From a virus, in IMG/VR virus record IMGVR_UViG_3300021961_000535, positions 1 through 26,573 of that record: a stretch of 26,573 nt of DNA. One strand, 5' to 3'. The position numbers and the translations under genes were made by a program. The notes below the pieces were generated by a model. The model saw only the letters and a program-made list of their open reading frames with translations, ran no database searches and had not been told where the DNA came from. Positions 10,789 through 22,188 of this stretch are shown in pieces (the first letter of the stretch is position 1; every line of letters starts with the position of its first letter).

Positions 10789-10806
10789 TTAATCTAAAAT
10801 TAGATT
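10789..10806. repeat. Near-perfect palindrome over the capsid stop codon
   Basis: TAATCTAA-AA-TTAGATTA is an 8-bp inverted repeat with a 2-base centre. It spans the last codons and stop of the major capsid gene, just before the GC-rich hairpin at 10757-10780. It could form a small AT hairpin protecting the mRNA end or simply be coincidental. Confidence 0.45.
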
Positions 10807-11657
10807 AATGCTGAAGAATCAGATACGATTGCAACACCGTATTGATCAAACAATTCAGAAGTTCCGTAAGCCATAGAACCTACGATCTCTAATGAACGTT
10901 TTGAAGCGTTTCTTTCAGTTTCAATTCTCATTGCTCTCTTAACCATGTAGCCAAGAGCATCTTGAGTCATTACACCACCTACGTAAGCACCTGCAGAATC
11001 ACCAGCAATAACCGTTGATTCAAAGATGTCCACGCCAGCGACACGTCCTACGAAACCATCTCTTAAAGCCGCGTTACCGATATCACTTAAAGAGTGTGAC
11101 ATAGTATTACCTGCGTTAGTTAATTGTTTCTTAAGATCATATGCTTGATATGGGTGTAACACACAAGCAAAACCACCATTTTGGTCTGCTTTGTTTGCTC
11201 TCAATGTAGCCGCCGCTTTAAAGATATCGTCGATTGTTACAGACGCACCAGCAGAGTTAATTGTGTTAGAGAAACCGCTGAATAATGTCGCGATATCTGT
11301 GTCAACTTTTTCTGCCATTGCCGCACCAATTTGACGTCCGATAGCCGCCGCAACATCTTCGTTTGCACTTTCTGCCGCTAGGTCAGTAAGTTCAACCATA
11401 ACACCAATTTCTGATGCTGTGATTGTTTTAGATGTTGTATTGAATGCTGTGTTAGATAGATCAATCCCGTCAGCAACGCCTGCCGCTGATAGTGATGGAT
11501 AAATTGGAACCTGTGCTGTTAAGCCTGGTGTTCCTGACATATCGTAATTTCTTACGAGAGGTCTAATTACGGTCTTCTCATTTAGTGTATAAAGAGCCGA
11601 CTGCACGATGTTTGCGTATAATTCACTTAATACGCTACTTGTTGCTTCATTTGCCAT
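10800..11657 (-). CDS. Major capsid protein (HK97 fold)
   Basis: 285 aa. It has a short N-terminal arm (MANEATSSVLSELYANIVQS), then 'LVRNYDMSGTPGLTAQVPIYP', which resembles the E-loop entry, the 'EIGVMVELTDLAAES' and 'AMAEKVDTDIATLFSG' segments (spine helix region), and the A-domain 'CVLHPYQAYDLKKQL' and 'VAGVDIFEST'. These are recognisable hallmarks of small HK97-fold capsid proteins of marine siphoviruses. There is no protease-type pro-domain, in line with a separate scaffold gene just upstream. DSAG lies near residue 221 in the A-domain/P-domain region. Start at 11657 with an AAGGAG site; a terminator-like hairpin follows. Confidence 0.9.
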   Translation of the reverse strand: MANEATSSVLSELYANIVQSALYTLNEKTVIRPLVRNYDMSGTPGLTAQVPIYPSLSAAGVADGIDLSNTAFNTTSKTITASEIGVMVELTDLAAESANEDVAAAIGRQIGAAMAEKVDTDIATLFSGFSNTINSAGASVTIDDIFKAAATLRANKADQNGGFACVLHPYQAYDLKKQLTNAGNTMSHSLSDIGNAALRDGFVGRVAGVDIFESTVIAGDSAGAYVGGVMTQDALGYMVKRAMRIETERNASKRSLEIVGSMAYGTSELFDQYGVAIVSDSSALI

Positions 11658-11683: not shown

Positions 11684-12391
11684 TTAAATACGGACCCCTT
11701 TAGCCTTCATAATCTCTTTGTATCGAGCACGATGCTCTGGGTTTTCCATATTCAGTTTTGTTATGTCGTTATCTACCACAGGACTTTGTTTTCCAACGCC
11801 TTGTCCAGTTCCTGAACCACTTGGTCCTGCCTGAACAAAATGTGGATTGGTTGTAAGGAATTCATTTACCAAACTAGACACTTTAATTGGGTTACCCGAA
11901 TCATCATATCTAACCTGTCCGTTTGCATCTACAACGTCAACACCACCTGCTTCATTTAAGCGAAGTTGTCCTTTTAGCAATGAAACCACCTGTTGTGGAT
12001 TTACTGCCTTTTGACTGCTTGCCTCATTAAGCAATGTGCCGTCTACCTTGATTGAAGTAAGTTCGCTTTGGTATTGTTGAATTTTACCGGAGAATTTCTC
12101 TGCCTGTTCCTTCAACAACTTTTCAAACTCGCCACGCTTTTCTAATTCTTCATGACGTGCCTTTTCTTGCTTCTCTACAAGTTCGTTATAAAGATCCAAG
12201 TCAACGTTTGAGTATTTCTTTTCAAACTTTGCCTTTTCTCTTGCTACCCTTTCCGCCACAATGCGATTTACATCGTCTTGTGATAAAAGGTTGTCCTTAA
12301 CACCTTCCTGTGTTTTTGCTACCTGCTCTTTACCTTCTTGGTGAGTTGCAGTCAACTCTGTATCATTAACCGCTGTGTTTTCTGCGTCCAT
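11684..12391 (-). CDS. Capsid scaffold protein
   Basis: 235 aa, highly charged. Residues 40-115 form a strong predicted coiled coil (VNRIVAERVAREKAKFEKKY, then repeated Glu/Lys heptads). A short Gly/Asp part follows (VDVVDANGQVRYDDSGNP), and a C-terminal basic tail (YKEIMKAKGVRI) as used by scaffolds to grip capsid protein. Its location directly upstream of the major capsid gene is the standard place. Scaffold is removed on DNA packaging. No protease gene accompanies it in this window. Start at 12391 with AGAGGT upstream. Confidence 0.85.
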   Translation of the reverse strand: MDAENTAVNDTELTATHQEGKEQVAKTQEGVKDNLLSQDDVNRIVAERVAREKAKFEKKYSNVDLDLYNELVEKQEKARHEELEKRGEFEKLLKEQAEKFSGKIQQYQSELTSIKVDGTLLNEASSQKAVNPQQVVSLLKGQLRLNEAGGVDVVDANGQVRYDDSGNPIKVSSLVNEFLTTNPHFVQAGPSGSGTGQGVGKQSPVVDNDITKLNMENPEHRARYKEIMKAKGVRI

Positions 12392-12448: not shown

Positions 12449-12820
12449 TTATTTAGCAATATTGGCTCTAGCCATGTCTAAATTGTGTTTGTTTTGCTGT
12501 ATTAACACCGGAATTGGTGTTGAATGTATTCCAAAACTAGGATGGCTATGTAACCATTCTTCGTCTTCTCGTTCTGTGTTTAATCTTTGTTCTATCTTTT
12601 TAAGTAGCCTTGGTTTTATAACACCTATGATGTTTACCCTGGCTTCTAGATCACCTAGTGGTTGAGGTATGCCATTCCATAGACATATTTCAATTTTACC
12701 CTTAAGCCATGCACTATAACTCCAAGGGCATACCCGTTTGATGCTAGTAAAATACTGCTCCCAAAGAGCCTTATTTTCTACCGCCTCGTTTGCCGCCTTT
12801 TTTGCCGCCTCTTTTTCCAC
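12449..12820 (-). CDS. Unknown 123-aa protein starting inside the Lys/Gly microprotein gene
   Basis: Only one start codon exists in this frame, GTG at 12820; upstream the frame closes with TGA and no ATG follows. The first ~17 residues (MEKEAAKKAANEAVENK) come from the same DNA that encodes the KKGG/KRGG repeat in another frame. After that the protein is Trp-rich and looks folded (ALWEQYFTSIKRVCPWSYSA, then a Gly/Pro loop and a helix). The region before the GTG is purine-rich but lacks a good Shine-Dalgarno, so initiation may depend on coupling, or the frame may be reached by a +1 slip from the microprotein gene. It lies between portal and scaffold genes. Function unknown. Confidence 0.6.
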   Translation of the reverse strand: MEKEAAKKAANEAVENKALWEQYFTSIKRVCPWSYSAWLKGKIEICLWNGIPQPLGDLEARVNIIGVIKPRLLKKIEQRLNTEREDEEWLHSHPSFGIHSTPIPVLIQQNKHNLDMARANIAK

Positions 12821-12932
12821 CTTTTTTCTTCTTCATAGCCATGATGCTCGCTCCTTTGTATTGCAGACTAAAACGTCTGCGTTGTCTTGGTTCACCTATA
12901 ACGCCACCTATTGACGCACTAGTAGTCACCAT
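12771..12932 (-). CDS. Very basic Lys/Arg/Gly-repeat microprotein (53 aa)
   Basis: A short gene found by reading the 13-12.7 kb gap. ATG at 12932 has AGAGGT upstream and overlaps the end of the 88-aa gene. The protein starts MVTTSASIGGVIGEPRQRRR and ends in a tail of five basic dipeptides separated by GG (KKGG-KRGG-KKGG-KRGG-RK), in which 12 of the last 23 residues are Lys or Arg and 8 are Gly. An in-frame ATG at 12842 behind a strong AAAGGAG could yield the 23-aa tail alone. Such a chain would bind nucleic acid or acidic proteins. Candidate roles are DNA condensation in the capsid or a portal/scaffold-associated factor. No family recognised. Confidence 0.6.
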   Translation of the reverse strand: MVTTSASIGGVIGEPRQRRRFSLQYKGASIMAMKKKKGGKRGGKKGGKRGGRK

Positions 12933-13185
12933 TGGTTTCTACCTCTTTCCAACTTGGATGTTCTTCAATCTTGCGATTTTTATAACCATCCAATATTTCA
13001 CGTCTGCGTTTTTTTAGCAAAGGATATAATTCTAGTAGGTTATTACGCGAACGTATGCCTGCTGTCTTGTAACCTTTGGTTTCATAGACGTGTATGTTTT
13101 CGTTGTATTCGCCAAGAACACGACGTATCTCCTGCTCCGTTTCATTCGTAACTATCCAACTATCTTCTGGGATATATTTTCCCAT
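12919..13185 (-). CDS. Small basic protein after portal, histone-H1-like motif (88 aa)
   Basis: 88 aa, helical and charged. Residues ~40-70 read KTAGIRSRNNLLELYPLLKK then RRREILDGYK. The pattern K-x-A-x-x-R-S-R-x-x-L-x-E-L is similar to short 'histone H1-like' proteins carried by some phages next to the portal or capsid genes. I cannot confirm this without a profile search. The ATG overlaps the portal stop by one base (TAATG at 13185), so synthesis is coupled to portal. The last bases overlap the start of the 53-aa basic microprotein. Confidence 0.65.
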   Translation of the reverse strand: MGKYIPEDSWIVTNETEQEIRRVLGEYNENIHVYETKGYKTAGIRSRNNLLELYPLLKKRRREILDGYKNRKIEEHPSWKEVETNGDY

Positions 13186-14705
13186 TACTCACCTCTGTTG
13201 AATAATTGTGCTAGTTCAGGATGTAGTTGTTGTATCTCTTCATCCGTATAACCCTGTTGCACCATCTCCCTCAAGTGTGCAATCAAGTCATTAGCACTAG
13301 TGACTGGAGGATGTTCCAGTGTAGGCCTAATCATACCCTCGCTCATAGGGGACTGCATATCTTCGTAATATTCTTCTGTGATTGTTTCGTAAATTCGTTT
13401 GTCAATTTCTTTGTTGATGTTGACGTCGGCAATGTTTGCTTCTTTAGCCATCTTCAACATAGTAACATCATTCGCTTTGTCCTGTATTGAGAATGAACGT
13501 GGATATTCCACTTCACCATCCCATACCTTACCTTGGTAAGTTGCCCATAGTCTCCAAATTAATTCTTCAGCGTGTTCTAGACACATAGCAAATCCGCTTA
13601 ATTTAGAATTAAGTGTTTGGAATTCGCTTGTTAGAGCAACACCTGATAGTCTACGACTTTCAACACTTCTAATACCTGCCAATGAAGCCATTCTATCAAT
13701 TGCCTCAACTTTCTTTTGCATTGCGTTGATAACACTATCAATACTCGCACCATTTGGCTGTAATAGATAAGGTTTTAAACCTGGATCCATGCTTTGTGGC
13801 ATTTGAATGATTGAACCTGCTCCAGCACCTGCTTCTGTGTCTGCCGTTTTAACAAGTGAAGGGTGATTGGTTAATCTTACAATCTGTTCAATCTCACTAC
13901 CAAACTCATATAGTTCTTTGGTAATGTCTGCGATATCGCCGACTGCGGATACTCCGACGCCGCGAATGTTTGAGCGTTGTGCATACACGCAGACCGCAGG
14001 CACTTTGCCCAGTGTGTTAGGGACGGTTTCAACAATTCTACCAGTTTTTTCATTGCCCGAAATCATATAGACATTAATCTCGGTAGGTGTATATTCCCTA
14101 ATATACTGCTTATCCTTAAGAACTTCTTCCTTAACCTTTAGATATGTTAATTCATAAAGTCCATTGGATGTTCTTTCATATTCCCAATCTAAAACATTGT
14201 CAGGAGTAAAAAGTGAAACATAAGGACGGATACCTTGTTGTAGTTCATCCGCTCTTGTTCTGGCCTGTGTTGTTGGCTTATCCACAATCACCCAAGCGTG
14301 TCCATAAACCATTGCGTATGTTGAAACGTCTCTTAAAAAAGCAAGTAGACTTCTACCATCCAAATCTGCGTCTGCAAGGAAAGGCTTCAAACCTGGATCG
14401 TTTTCTAGACTACCAAAATCTCTTTTGATTTCTTTTCTAAACAAGAATGAGTTGTATAAGTCAACAATGGATTTGACGTGGTTGTCAAGTCCAATCATTC
14501 TTAAACGTTTTTCGTAATCTTCTCTTGATTCGTAGTAGTATGGCTCCAAATACTTCCCGTTGAAGTAGTCAAAACCGCCTTGATATGAATCACCTAAAAA
14601 CTGCCACCTGTTAAGGTAGTATTTGTAGGCGTCGTGTGCTTCAACGATGTAGTCAATGTTTAATTTACTATCACCCTTGATAATTCTATCTCTAATGACG
14701 GGCAT
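13185..14705 (-). CDS. Portal protein
   Basis: 506 aa. It forms the 12-subunit ring at the packaging vertex through which terminase pumps DNA. Recognisable features are the N-terminal 'LNRWQFLGDSYQGGFDYF', the 'DLYNSFLFRKEI' region, the central 'YGHAWVIVDKP' and 'YVSLFTPDNVLDWEYE' strand segments, a long alpha-helical stem region (~260-360, 'ELYEFGSEIEQIVRLTNHPS'), and a C-terminal acidic/helical tail. The length is typical of siphovirus portals. It lies directly downstream of the large terminase with a TAATG overlap at 14705. Confidence 0.92.
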   Translation of the reverse strand: MPVIRDRIIKGDSKLNIDYIVEAHDAYKYYLNRWQFLGDSYQGGFDYFNGKYLEPYYYESREDYEKRLRMIGLDNHVKSIVDLYNSFLFRKEIKRDFGSLENDPGLKPFLADADLDGRSLLAFLRDVSTYAMVYGHAWVIVDKPTTQARTRADELQQGIRPYVSLFTPDNVLDWEYERTSNGLYELTYLKVKEEVLKDKQYIREYTPTEINVYMISGNEKTGRIVETVPNTLGKVPAVCVYAQRSNIRGVGVSAVGDIADITKELYEFGSEIEQIVRLTNHPSLVKTADTEAGAGAGSIIQMPQSMDPGLKPYLLQPNGASIDSVINAMQKKVEAIDRMASLAGIRSVESRRLSGVALTSEFQTLNSKLSGFAMCLEHAEELIWRLWATYQGKVWDGEVEYPRSFSIQDKANDVTMLKMAKEANIADVNINKEIDKRIYETITEEYYEDMQSPMSEGMIRPTLEHPPVTSANDLIAHLREMVQQGYTDEEIQQLHPELAQLFNRGE

Positions 14706-16282: not shown

Positions 16283-16611
16283 TATATCTGTCTCTCCACT
16301 ACCTTGATTCTAAAGTTTCTGCTATCTTTTAAACCATTGGTGGTTGTGATTTTGTATTCTACGTTATAAACTTTGCCTGTTGTTCCGCCTGAAATATTTG
16401 CTGTTGCTATGTAATTTGTGTTTGTGCTTGAATCTATTACTAAAGGTGTTGCATCGCCACTAATGGTTTCTGCCGTGATAGTAATTGCAGAAATTGTATC
16501 ACCAGTTGGCATCCAGTTGGTCCAATCCAATGAATAATCCAAAACCGCATATGGGTCTTTTTCTATAAAATGCCCTACCCTATCTTGTTGGAAACCTGTA
16601 AGTGTCGCCAT
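16282..16611 (-). CDS. Small beta-sandwich-like virion-associated protein
   Basis: 109 aa. It begins with a short N-terminal part containing 'EKDPYAVLDYSLDWTNWMPT' then GDTISAITIT, and continues as an alternating beta pattern (Ig-like, ~30-105, ending KDSRNFRIKVVERQI). Small proteins of this type occur in several marine phage structural clusters. The D-W-T-x-W-x-x-x-G-D-T-I opening is recurrent, but the role (decoration, fibre base or adaptor) is unknown. Coupled to both neighbours by TAATG overlaps. Confidence 0.65.
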   Translation of the reverse strand: MATLTGFQQDRVGHFIEKDPYAVLDYSLDWTNWMPTGDTISAITITAETISGDATPLVIDSSTNTNYIATANISGGTTGKVYNVEYKITTTNGLKDSRNFRIKVVERQI

Positions 16612-18089
16612 TAACCTTCTCTCCTGTCTAAAGGATTTATTTGTTCTACGAGTGTTAGCGTCTGTGGCTTAAGAACTCTACTTTCGCTTTTCACCATGAA
16701 TCCTCGTGTTTCTTGTTCAATGTTATTTAAGCGATTCTCTGGTTTTACCGCAAATTTTCGCTCCTCTTGTTCGATAATGAGTGTTCTTGACTCCGAATCT
16801 ACAGCAAATACTCTAAATGGATCTATGATATAGATTGTTAAGGCACTTAACACACTATTGAATGCACTCATTGATGCACTTAATCTTACAAGTATACCTG
16901 CATTACAATCCAATGTGAATTGTGGTAATAGTGTTGCACTTCTATCATATCTTGCTATTGCATTGGTTGTTAATGAAGCACTTGCTGTTATTGTAGCACT
17001 ATTGCCTCTTGTTCTTTCACCAAGTGTTAGTTGTGAATTAAATGCTGAAAGTGTTGCGGCACCACCCGCAGTATAATTGCCTGCGATTGTAAGTGTGCCA
17101 GCACTTGCTTCTAATACTATACCACGTTTTGTTTGAACGGCACTTGCACTAAAGTCAAATGCACCACTCATTGTGGACACACCTGATACTTGGAATATAG
17201 CACTTGAAGTTAAACCAAATGCACCAGTTAGGTTTGCTGTTGTATCTGTTCCTTTTGTTCCTGCTGTGACTACCGTGTTAAACGCTTGTAAATCAGCAAC
17301 GGCTGTTGAATGTATCTTATCACCATCTGCTGTTAGTGTTCCGCTTGATGCTTGTAAACTTGCACCTGGTAAAATTAAATCACCATCTGCTGTTAGCGTT
17401 GCACTACTTGTTAGATTAATTACACCCGCTTCGATGAATAATCTTATACCACTATCTGGTAGATAAAGTGTTGGTCCCCAAATCTGTTGTGTGTCATGAT
17501 TCCAACTACCATAGTTTGCCCAAGTCACACCATCGTGTGCATTGACAGCCAATGTTGCAACACCGCCTCTTAAGACATCAGCATCAACAACCATTGTGCC
17601 AGCACTTGCCTGTAGTGTTGCTCCTGGATGTATTCTACCAGCCGCAACAACAACGGCACCAGCACCTGATATGTTTGACGCACCTTGTTTTATTTGAACG
17701 CCAAGTGCTGTTTGTGTAGCATTGGCATTTATAGTTGATGTTGAACGTTTTGTTTGAACAGCACTTGCTGTTAGTGTGCCTGCACTTGCTTGAAGTGTTG
17801 CACTACGTTTAATTTGACTTGCTTCAAGTGTGAACGATAATGCACTTGATATTGTAGCACTACCACCATTAACTTTTTGTGGTGTTGTAGTGGTTGTGGC
17901 GGTAGTTGCAAGTGTCGCCGAAGTTTGTTTTAATTTATCAGCCTGTGCAGATACAGAAGCAGATACCGTTAAGGTTGCCTGTCCAAGGATCGCACCTTGC
18001 ACATAACCTATATTAACATAGGTATCGCTTACATAGCCTGTTGTCGCATAACCCTCTGCGACATATAAATCACTAACAAACTCCGCCAC
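16611..18089 (-). CDS. Long beta-repeat structural protein with C-terminal R/E repeats
   Basis: 492 aa from GTG at 18089 (preceding GGGGGG is a weak ribosome site). Residues 1-30 have repeating Tyr-Val-x-x-Gly-Tyr pairs. About 40-400 is an imperfect repeat of 'GATLQASAGTL...' type units separated by basic 'QTKR' turns, a pattern expected for a beta-solenoid or stacked sheets. Residues 420-490 hold three or more short repeats built on F/L-x-V-x-S/P-E-x-R (AVDSESRTLIIEQEERKFAV). A signal peptide is absent, so it is most likely a virion fibre/head-associated protein. A position upstream of the terminase is unusual for tail fibres, so a head fibre is an alternative. Confidence 0.7.
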   Translation of the reverse strand: MAEFVSDLYVAEGYATTGYVSDTYVNIGYVQGAILGQATLTVSASVSAQADKLKQTSATLATTATTTTTPQKVNGGSATISSALSFTLEASQIKRSATLQASAGTLTASAVQTKRSTSTINANATQTALGVQIKQGASNISGAGAVVVAAGRIHPGATLQASAGTMVVDADVLRGGVATLAVNAHDGVTWANYGSWNHDTQQIWGPTLYLPDSGIRLFIEAGVINLTSSATLTADGDLILPGASLQASSGTLTADGDKIHSTAVADLQAFNTVVTAGTKGTDTTANLTGAFGLTSSAIFQVSGVSTMSGAFDFSASAVQTKRGIVLEASAGTLTIAGNYTAGGAATLSAFNSQLTLGERTRGNSATITASASLTTNAIARYDRSATLLPQFTLDCNAGILVRLSASMSAFNSVLSALTIYIIDPFRVFAVDSESRTLIIEQEERKFAVKPENRLNNIEQETRGFMVKSESRVLKPQTLTLVEQINPLDRREG

Positions 18090-20097: not shown

Positions 20098-22188
20098 TTA
20101 ATACCTTTGCGTATGACTAATTCTAATTTCATCAACATAAGCATCTGGCGTTCCTGAATAGTTTCCTAAACGAACATATCCGTGGTTACTATAACTACCT
20201 GCCGCTTTTGTTCCTGAAGCAACTTCAAAACCATCACACAACACTCTAATAGCACCTGTGCTGTGGTTATAAACCATCGCAATATGATGCCATTGGTTAG
20301 CATTGATTAGTCCTGTTGCTGAAGTTACATAATAACTTGCTCCTGCGTAATAGAAGAATTGTAAACTGCCATCATTTTTAGCACCAAAACTCCAATAGTT
20401 TCCGCCACCTGTAGTGACAAAACTACCCATCACCCTTGGTAAACCGTTTCCTGCTTGGGCACCTGTTAGTGTGTCATAGTATACCCAACATTCAATTGTG
20501 GTATCCTGATTATACCAAGCACTGGTTCCACCGTCACCAAAATAAATGCTGTCTGTTGAACTAAAGTTTAGGTCAACACTTGCTGTGCCAAATTTTGCTT
20601 GTGTTGTGCTTAAATCCGCACTTGCTCCACTAAAGGTAATTGTGTGTGAGTTTGAACTTTCGTCAGTTGCTGATGTCTGTCCATTTGTTCCATCCCAACT
20701 ACATAAAAATTCTGTGTTACCATCACTTGTAAATGCCGCTGTTGGAACCGTATAATCAGGTGGTGGTGTATATCCTGACAATGTTTGTCCGTTGTCATCA
20801 AATATTTCTGTTGCGTTAGCACCTTGCTGTTCAAAGTGTAATAGCAATAGTGTGTTAGCATCGTTTTCAAATGCTGTGGTGCTTGGTGTAAATCCACTTG
20901 TGTATCTTGCTGTTTGTGATACACGAAATTCATCAATGTGTCCATTGAAGAAAAATCTACCACCTGGACTACCCGTGTGCAAATATCTATCAAATATACC
21001 AATTGCTGGCACAATAGACCCAATTTGTTTATCTGTTGTATCCGTTACACTTGCTTTTTCTACACCGTCAACATATACCTTAAGTGTTCCTGAATTTCTT
21101 ACAGCCGCATAGTGTGACCAAGTGCCACTGCTACTACCTGAAGTGAATGTTGTTGAACCTACCCCATAGTGTAGTGCATTTAAGGATAAAACTAATCCTG
21201 GCACAATAGTTCCGTCCGGATCTTCATTCCAATCGTATACATGATTCCAAGTAAACAACGCATCATAGGTTCCTGGTGTTGTGGCAGGTCTTGCCCAACA
21301 TTCAATTGTAAAATCGCCTGTGCCCAATGCTGTTAAATTGTGCATTGGCACAAAATCACCTGTTCCATCCAATAGTAAACTTGAACTACCAAATTTGTAT
21401 TGTGCTGTATCTATCTGTGCGTTACCAAATGCAGTTAAACCAACCGGTCCTCTATCACCGTTGTCATCAATGAACACCGTGTCACCATCTGTTCCATCTG
21501 CGTGGATCAACAATAGTGTGTTGCTGTCATTTACAAATGCTGTTGTTGTTGGTGTAAATCCTGTTGTGTATCTTGCAGTTTTAGAAATACGGAATTCATC
21601 AATATTTCCTGGCAATGAATAACCACTATTGTAGTAAGCACCAAATTGCAGATATCTTGCACTTGAATAATCATATGTATCAGTGGAACTCCATTGTTGA
21701 ACTCCATCTATGTAAAGATACATGGTTCCGCTGTATCTAACAACAGCAACGTGATACCACGTGTTTGTGCTGTTTGCTGATGCAGTTAAACCTAACGCCT
21801 GTGATGATGTTCCTTTAAAATAGACTTGCCAGTTTGCGGAGCCATTGCTGTAAAACGCCGCCGCTACAGAATTAGCACCTGATGACGCATTGTAGTCTGG
21901 ATCTGCGTGAATATGAAATATACCCTTGTTTGCTGTATTGCTTGTTCTTGCAAAACATTCAATGGTGAAATCACCTGAACTACCAACCGTTGAACCAAAG
22001 TCCGCAACATCTACGGTTAGATAATCACTTGTTCCATCACCTAGATAAGAACTGCCGCCAAACTTGTATTGTGCTGTGTCTATCTGTGCATCATTGACTG
22101 CTGTAATGGTTCTTGCTGTTCTTTGTGCTACTGCCGCCGCTTCTGCCGCCTTTGCTAAAAAACTTAATCTACTTGCTCCAATTGGCAT
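20098..22188 (-). CDS. Triple LamG-like adhesin (696 aa)
   Basis: 696 aa. A short Ala-rich N-terminal helix (AKAAEAAAVAQRTARTI) is followed by three LamG/concanavalin-type units at about 30-225, 250-455 and 500-696. Units 1 and 2 share 'AQIDTAQYKFG', unit 3 the related 'STTQAKFG'. All three carry 'FTIEC/TTIECW', a W-x-H-x-A-x-V segment, an 'YVDGV/YIDGV/LCDGF' turn and end in 'DEFRISKTARY', 'DEFRVSQTARY' or 'DEIRISHTQRY'. This looks like a duplicated carbohydrate-binding module fixed to the virion by the N-terminal helix. No signal peptide. It lies upstream of the terminase genes. Confidence 0.85.
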   Translation of the reverse strand: MPIGASRLSFLAKAAEAAAVAQRTARTITAVNDAQIDTAQYKFGGSSYLGDGTSDYLTVDVADFGSTVGSSGDFTIECFARTSNTANKGIFHIHADPDYNASSGANSVAAAFYSNGSANWQVYFKGTSSQALGLTASANSTNTWYHVAVVRYSGTMYLYIDGVQQWSSTDTYDYSSARYLQFGAYYNSGYSLPGNIDEFRISKTARYTTGFTPTTTAFVNDSNTLLLIHADGTDGDTVFIDDNGDRGPVGLTAFGNAQIDTAQYKFGSSSLLLDGTGDFVPMHNLTALGTGDFTIECWARPATTPGTYDALFTWNHVYDWNEDPDGTIVPGLVLSLNALHYGVGSTTFTSGSSSGTWSHYAAVRNSGTLKVYVDGVEKASVTDTTDKQIGSIVPAIGIFDRYLHTGSPGGRFFFNGHIDEFRVSQTARYTSGFTPSTTAFENDANTLLLLHFEQQGANATEIFDDNGQTLSGYTPPPDYTVPTAAFTSDGNTEFLCSWDGTNGQTSATDESSNSHTITFSGASADLSTTQAKFGTASVDLNFSSTDSIYFGDGGTSAWYNQDTTIECWVYYDTLTGAQAGNGLPRVMGSFVTTGGGNYWSFGAKNDGSLQFFYYAGASYYVTSATGLINANQWHHIAMVYNHSTGAIRVLCDGFEVASGTKAAGSYSNHGYVRLGNYSGTPDAYVDEIRISHTQRY
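21391..22089 (-). repeat. Direct repeat between LamG units 1 and 2
   Basis: The 30-base stretches at 21391-21420 and 22060-22089 differ at only two positions. Both encode the AQIDTAQYKF-type start of a LamG unit. The spacing matches the unit length, pointing to tandem duplication within the gene and a likely site for recombination-driven unit gain or loss. Confidence 0.75.

Follow-up and report, generated by a model that had tools for sequence, protein, structure and literature searches.

A candidate nested two-start micro-gene for a Gly-spaced basic peptide between the portal and scaffold genes of uncultured phages

In an uncultured tailed phage, a small gene with the portal gene on one side and the scaffold gene on the other is best read as a nested two-start gene that ends in a short run of Lys, Arg and Gly. 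Here, initiation at ATG 12932 would give a 53-aa protein made of a leader and a basic tail. Initiation at ATG 12842, which a strong ribosome site precedes, would give a 23-aa Lys/Arg/Gly peptide alone. A third start, a weak GTG at 12820 in the +1 frame, would begin a separate protein, called p123 below. The fuller proposal, given roughly even chances, places this nested two-start micro-gene in the late head-assembly operon and has its disordered polycation bind nucleic acid in head assembly or packaging.

The window, meaning the whole stretch of DNA that was analysed, comes from a virus record; it has 26,573 bases and no attached host genome. The features of the region, with anti-SD dG values for the ribosome sites, are these:

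13185..14705, minus strand: portal protein (phrog_145, E 2.5e-63), context
12919..13185, minus strand: 88-aa Hc1-domain (PF07432) protein, 24.5 bits, upstream of the 53-aa ORF
12941..12946, minus strand: AGAGGT, predicted ribosome site for the 53-aa form, dG -7.1
12771..12932, minus strand: 53-aa ORF, a leader of ~30 aa and a basic Gly-spaced tail in frame (from translation and leader dN/dS)
12851..12857, minus strand: AAAGGAG, predicted ribosome site for the internal ATG, dG -7.9
12771..12842, minus strand: predicted 23-aa short product from the internal ATG (junction Met invariant; standalone genes in relatives)
12449..12820, minus strand: 123-aa protein (p123 family), GTG start within the basic ORF, +1 frame
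11684..12391, minus strand: head scaffolding protein (phrog_206, E 3.1e-15), context
10800..11657, minus strand: major head protein (phrog_544, E 8.6e-27; PF25209), context

Elsewhere in the window, two ORFs have repeats visible by eye. A 696-aa ORF (20098-22188, minus strand) holds repeated LamG/concanavalin-like segments and is perhaps an adhesin, and a 492-aa ORF (16611-18089, minus strand) holds repeated SATLxASxGTLT-like units.

The ORF from 12932 to 12771 translates as MVTTSASIGGVIGEPRQRRRFSLQYKGASIMAMKKKKGGKRGGKKGGKRGGRK, ending at a stop codon. It consists of a leader, MVTTSASIGGVIGEPRQRRRFSLQYKGASI, followed by MAMKKKKGGKRGGKKGGKRGGRK; the tail has five basic blocks set apart by four Gly-Gly spacers, and the 23-aa product by itself would carry a net charge of about +13. 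The ORF shares 14 nt with the 3' end of the 88-aa gene. By anti-SD dG, which is -8.5 for the capsid gene and -8.5 for the portal gene of the window, the translation signals of the peptide are as strong as those of the structural genes.

The model of the 53-aa protein is disordered (pLDDT 55.8) and gives no further information. Its sequence has no significant profile match in PHROG (the best is phrog_26903, E 0.13) and no match in Pfam, the Hc1 model (PF07432) included. The literature search found no paper on the basic peptide; precedents concerned only Hc1 in jumbo phages and YqcI/YcgG. A sequence-only reading had pointed to this gene beforehand. The coordinates, ribosome sites, basic tail, internal ATG and out-of-frame overlap that it listed are all present in the sequence, the neighbours that it took for portal and scaffold match phrog_145 and phrog_206, and its view that no named family fits agrees with the absence of the protein from Pfam and PHROGs.

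Comparison with relatives shows that the peptide gene of the window is more than a chance ORF. The portal protein was used to find 53 related contigs in IMG/VR, and under a strict composition filter the peptide is present in the portal-scaffold interval of 48 of them. Two DNA-pattern scans enlarged the set to about 99 distinct loci; here the peptide lies nearly always upstream of the scaffold gene, where the contig includes that gene. These relatives are, of course, metagenomic contigs and non-independent, and tests were made at the level of clusters where possible. Selection by composition could also admit chance ORFs; position and ribosome sites make such admixture minor.

The peptides fall into two sub-types. 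One is the RGG type (MAMRGGKKKKKKTRGGKRRK); the other, that of the window, is the periodic KRGG type (MAMKKKKKGGKRGGKRGGKK). Across 82 KRGG-type and 47 RGG-type peptides, the median net charge is +12 and the median length 21-22.5 aa. Homology between the two types is not provable, because low-complexity peptides of Lys, Arg and Gly can arise repeatedly. The sequence-only reading had suggested looking for the KKGG pattern in relatives; the KKGG/KRGG pattern is conserved. That reading had also said that it would fall if there were no conservation, with constraint only in the 123-aa frame. The recurrence in 48 of 53 relatives, together with the selection on the leader described below, contradicts that outcome.

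Other small genes were seen in and near this interval. In phage DSL-LC06 (OR003941), a 15-aa version of the peptide, MKYKKKKPGRGGKKY, lies unannotated behind AAGGAGCGAACC (L054:8003-8050). Another family of tiny basic proteins (KGGYRWG..KTKKQAQ..A..ASGYKKKK, ~41 aa) turns up repeatedly in this interval, in L003, L012, L013, L021, L042, L054 and L202, and in L017, L042 and L202 it is fused to a MATRGG/MAMRGG/MAMKKGG peptide. An ORF of ~188 aa is inserted in L009 and L010 (about +551 to +1117 after the portal) and in L017 (+5 to +568). By eye it is FkbM methyltransferase-like, and it adjoins the basic peptide or the 88-aa gene.

The relatives also bear on the two starts. In many of them (L018, L020, L028, L041 and others) a standalone short gene begins at the window's internal Met. 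In others, leaders from different families (TTSASIG..RRxFKL, KGGYRWG..AERQGRA, TNNPALLTPG.., GIGSLNSNR..) are joined at this same Met. The window's own leader is conserved in relatives, and the junction Met is invariant in 21 aligned fused relatives. Thus the start at 12842, whose conservation the sequence-only reading had proposed as a check, is kept.

A GGAG- or AGGAG-like site stands at proper spacing before nearly every core ATG in the relatives. In the fused genes this site has to be written within the codons of the leader, and it is kept despite that constraint. Their median anti-SD dG is -9.1; for synonymous recodings the value is -5.1, and for the internal Met codons of structural genes it is -1.7. 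When the internal ribosome site is compared with synonymous recodings and the worst P is taken for each lineage, the Fisher combined P over 20 lineages is about 9e-10. The argument for two starts rests on the relatives, since the internal ribosome site of the window is not significant alone (P about 0.2).

It might be supposed that only one product is made, either the 53-aa protein with a relic internal ATG or the 23-mer with the leader as an upstream coupling ORF. Both products are, after all, predicted from sequence, and the two ribosome sites of the window are similar in strength. However, a ribosome site at the internal ATG has been kept across those 20 lineages behind different leaders. 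Further, the leader is under purifying selection. Its dN/dS is 0.08 between the window and L001 and 0.15 between the window and L002, and the remaining two frames have no such pattern; L001 against L002 gives a weaker signal, 0.47, from few differences. Last, L016 and L040 encode leader and basic peptide as two distinct genes, and both are kept. A single product is therefore unlikely.

Retention of the internal start, selection on the leader, and the separate genes in L016 and L040 make a nested two-start gene the best reading. The locus has the conserved internal in-frame start, with its own ribosome site, that characterizes such a gene. Translation of both products has indirect support from the leader dN/dS and from the standalone short genes. 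The two-product gene suggested in the sequence-only reading thus gains comparative backing, from an internal start and ribosome site in 20 lineages and from a short form that stands by itself.

The tail of the nested gene also contains the beginning of p123. Its start, GTG 12820, has almost no ribosome site (anti-SD dG -1.9 in the window, median -1.5 in relatives), so p123 is probably coupled to translation of the peptide. An open +1 frame over the tail is, of course, largely compositional, because codons for Lys, Arg and Gly cannot form a stop in that frame. Openness by itself therefore carries no weight; what counts is that the GTG is retained and that the protein downstream is conserved.

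A +1-frame start is lacking in none of the 82 peptide genes, while codon shuffles are expected to leave 13 without one. Exactly one such start is found in 63 of the 82, against 36 in the shuffles. With 23 representatives clustered at 70% identity, both tests give P about 0.015. The GTG is written as GGT-G or as CGT-G, depending on the lineage, which favours selection for the start codon. A chance overlap of p123 with the peptide was rejected, since the presence and number of GTG starts exceed those of the shuffles.

Searches with p123 gave 421 confirmed matches in IMG/VR, none in the GTDB collection (84,980 species), and none among 50,697 GenBank phage records. No Pfam or PHROG family was found for it, and a BFVD search returned one close relative, A0A516M8K8, 64% identical. 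By these searches p123 is a new, previously unnamed protein family. The second frame that the sequence-only reading had seen sharing this DNA is a real gene, with a conserved protein and a retained GTG.

The conserved domain of p123 (W..YF.SI..VCPWS ... EEWLySHP.fG.hSTPvPvLIQQd...L...R) begins exactly at the stop codon of the basic ORF. The basic ORF is in phase +1 to p123 in 84 of 86 distinct loci, with overlap in all but one of these. The periodic KKGGKRGG form is nearly always paired with p123 (84 of 86 loci). An ATG of its own is almost never found in p123. The coincident boundary, the constant phase and the rarity of an own ATG would fit programmed frameshifting, with the basic peptide and p123 made as one protein. 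However, in L266 and L255 p123 has its own ATG at the edge of the domain, after a separate basic ORF that ends earlier, and in L128 it follows the stop of the basic ORF, in that ORF's frame, and starts with TTG. These loci encode the peptide and p123 separately, which implies separate proteins and no frameshift fusion. The GTG is retained by different codon means, and the codon preceding the stop of the basic ORF is not conserved. With own starts in L255, L266 and L128 and a conserved GTG, the locus does not have the organization of a programmed ribosomal frameshift gene, and a fusion of this kind is highly improbable.

The strong conservation of p123 might invite the opposite simplification, that function resides in the 123-aa frame only, with the basic ORF arising incidentally from its coding bases. 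This is already contradicted by the relatives. About half of the distinct peptide cores occur without p123, and where p123 has moved, the basic ORF stands separately. That explanation is hardly credible. As a side observation, the stretch about 40-230 nt upstream of p123 in L255 encodes a small basic protein (MATYRGSKCKGACDGHRAGARYARNGG...), inserted after the peptide gene and ahead of p123, and L163 has a relative of it.

The fold of p123 provides a lead. Its AlphaFold2 model has a mean pLDDT of 92.3, and a Foldseek search of the PDB gave nothing significant. VIA-align aligned p123 with AglA at 113 of 114 residues, with an rmsd of 3.3. The Z of 7.0 is under the tool's caution level of 8; for the next unrelated chain it was 4.0. 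The AglA sequence was retrieved with a YqcI/YcgG family consensus, which served for that alone. AglA is a YqcI/YcgG haem-thiolate enzyme, an arginine N-hydroxylase that acts on guanidine (PMC12866846).

The order of secondary structures in p123 is that of AglA, minus one helix. An invariant Cys (Cys22) lies just before helix 2 of p123 and an invariant Gln (Gln99) in its last strand; a reading of sequence and topology places Cys44 and Gln177 of AglA in like positions. The invariance of the Cys in 79 p123 sequences is partly by construction, because the motif used to pick loci includes it; it is invariant also in an HMM-free set. However, p123 is half the size of AglA and has no sequence or profile match to it. 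PF08892 matched none of 33 p123 members and nothing in the record, and a profile comparison with 13 YqcI/YcgG proteins was negative (hhalign probability 0.5%).

The structural link of p123 to the YqcI/YcgG haem enzymes is weak, and is only a lead. It is retained because it would be remarkable to find an enzyme that acts on arginine paired with a peptide rich in Arg. On this idea, p123 would be a minimal YqcI/YcgG-like haem-thiolate protein that modifies Arg or Lys of the KRGG peptide, the two forming a RiPP-like substrate-enzyme pair in a mobile head-operon cassette; this is a long shot. A JAMM metalloprotease, an idea taken at the sequence level from the "HSHP" string of p123, was dropped, Pfam giving no support for it.

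The gene upstream bears on the function of the peptide. Its 88-aa product passes the Pfam cut-off of 23.5 bits for PF07432 (Hc1), and 19 of 20 relatives match that model at E <= 0.1 (best 8.1e-11). By profile, then, it has a histone H1-like Hc1 domain, and it is conserved within this group of uncultured phages; tblastn gave no match to it in the 50,697 GenBank phage records. Hc1-domain genes have been reported in jumbo "moraphages," where a role in genome compaction was suggested (PMC12619734). The likeness to chlamydial Hc1 is that the 88-aa gene has the Hc1 domain and that a basic peptide resembling a tail is encoded beside it. However, the 88-aa protein has no Lys/Ala-rich basic tail of its own, its C-terminus being acidic or aromatic (..HPSWKEVETNGDY), and the 53-aa gene itself encodes no Hc1. 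Outside the clade of the window, most KRGG-type genomes have no Hc1 gene, so the peptide is independent of Hc1.

The peptide might instead act on proteins, as an assembly cofactor: a polycation that links acidic regions of the scaffold, portal or capsid protein and departs together with the scaffold. This main rival is somewhat unlikely. The peptide lies almost always directly upstream of the scaffold gene, and its translation signals match those of structural genes in strength, both of which speak for it. However, the peptide/p123 cassette is also found between terS and terL (L121, L178, L212) and, amid T7-like tail proteins, 4 nt after the gene for an internal virion protein (phrog_418; L157:1723-5270). 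The peptide also adjoins the Hc1-domain gene in the window's clade. The sequence-only reading had overlooked both this Hc1 domain and the recurrence of the peptide with p123 at other places.

In the mechanism proposed here, the short peptide would be the widespread and probably ancestral unit, to which leaders were added in frame, with p123 as its regular partner in the KKGGKRGG subtype. The polycation, abundant and disordered, would most likely bind phage DNA, or possibly RNA, during head assembly and packaging. It would act alongside the upstream Hc1-domain protein, much as a protamine or a histone-tail peptide does. Production of both products and their presence in virion or procapsid are presumed with this. 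Composition and neighbours suggest the nucleic-acid function; for peptides of the RGG/KGG kind the target may instead be RNA or protein.

Nested in-frame genes with two starts are familiar in phages, the C/Nu3 gene of lambda being an example. The two-polypeptide endolysins likewise have one frame, a shared stop, an internal ribosome site, and a C-terminal product made alone (PMC9430671, PMC4777826). Here, in contrast, the short product is a polycation of 13-38 residues, several unrelated leaders are found at one internal start, and a third gene starts inside in another frame.

The core peptides of adenovirus are comparably small, highly basic and disordered. Protamine-like DNA-condensing proteins are known from eukaryotic DNA viruses (PMC6163548), and they share these features; encoding together with genome encapsidation would be a further likeness, here as a hypothesis. 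Membership of such a class of protamine-like virion peptides is suggested by composition, that is, by the median net charge of +12. The phage peptide differs in its Lys/Arg blocks with Gly-Gly spacers and in belonging to a tailed phage, and no sequence homology has been shown.

Genes this short are easily missed, as the unannotated 15-aa version in the annotated phage DSL-LC06 illustrates. Here, nearly all members of one large group of uncultured aquatic phages have such a gene, placed among their capsid genes. The KRGG peptide and p123 together offer a clean case of three starts in about 110 bases, and p123 adds a family, hundreds strong, that neither Pfam nor PHROGs has named. In the textbook picture, tailed phages package naked DNA. 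If the peptide binds the packaged genome, tailed phages would, against this picture, own helpers like protamines or histone tails.
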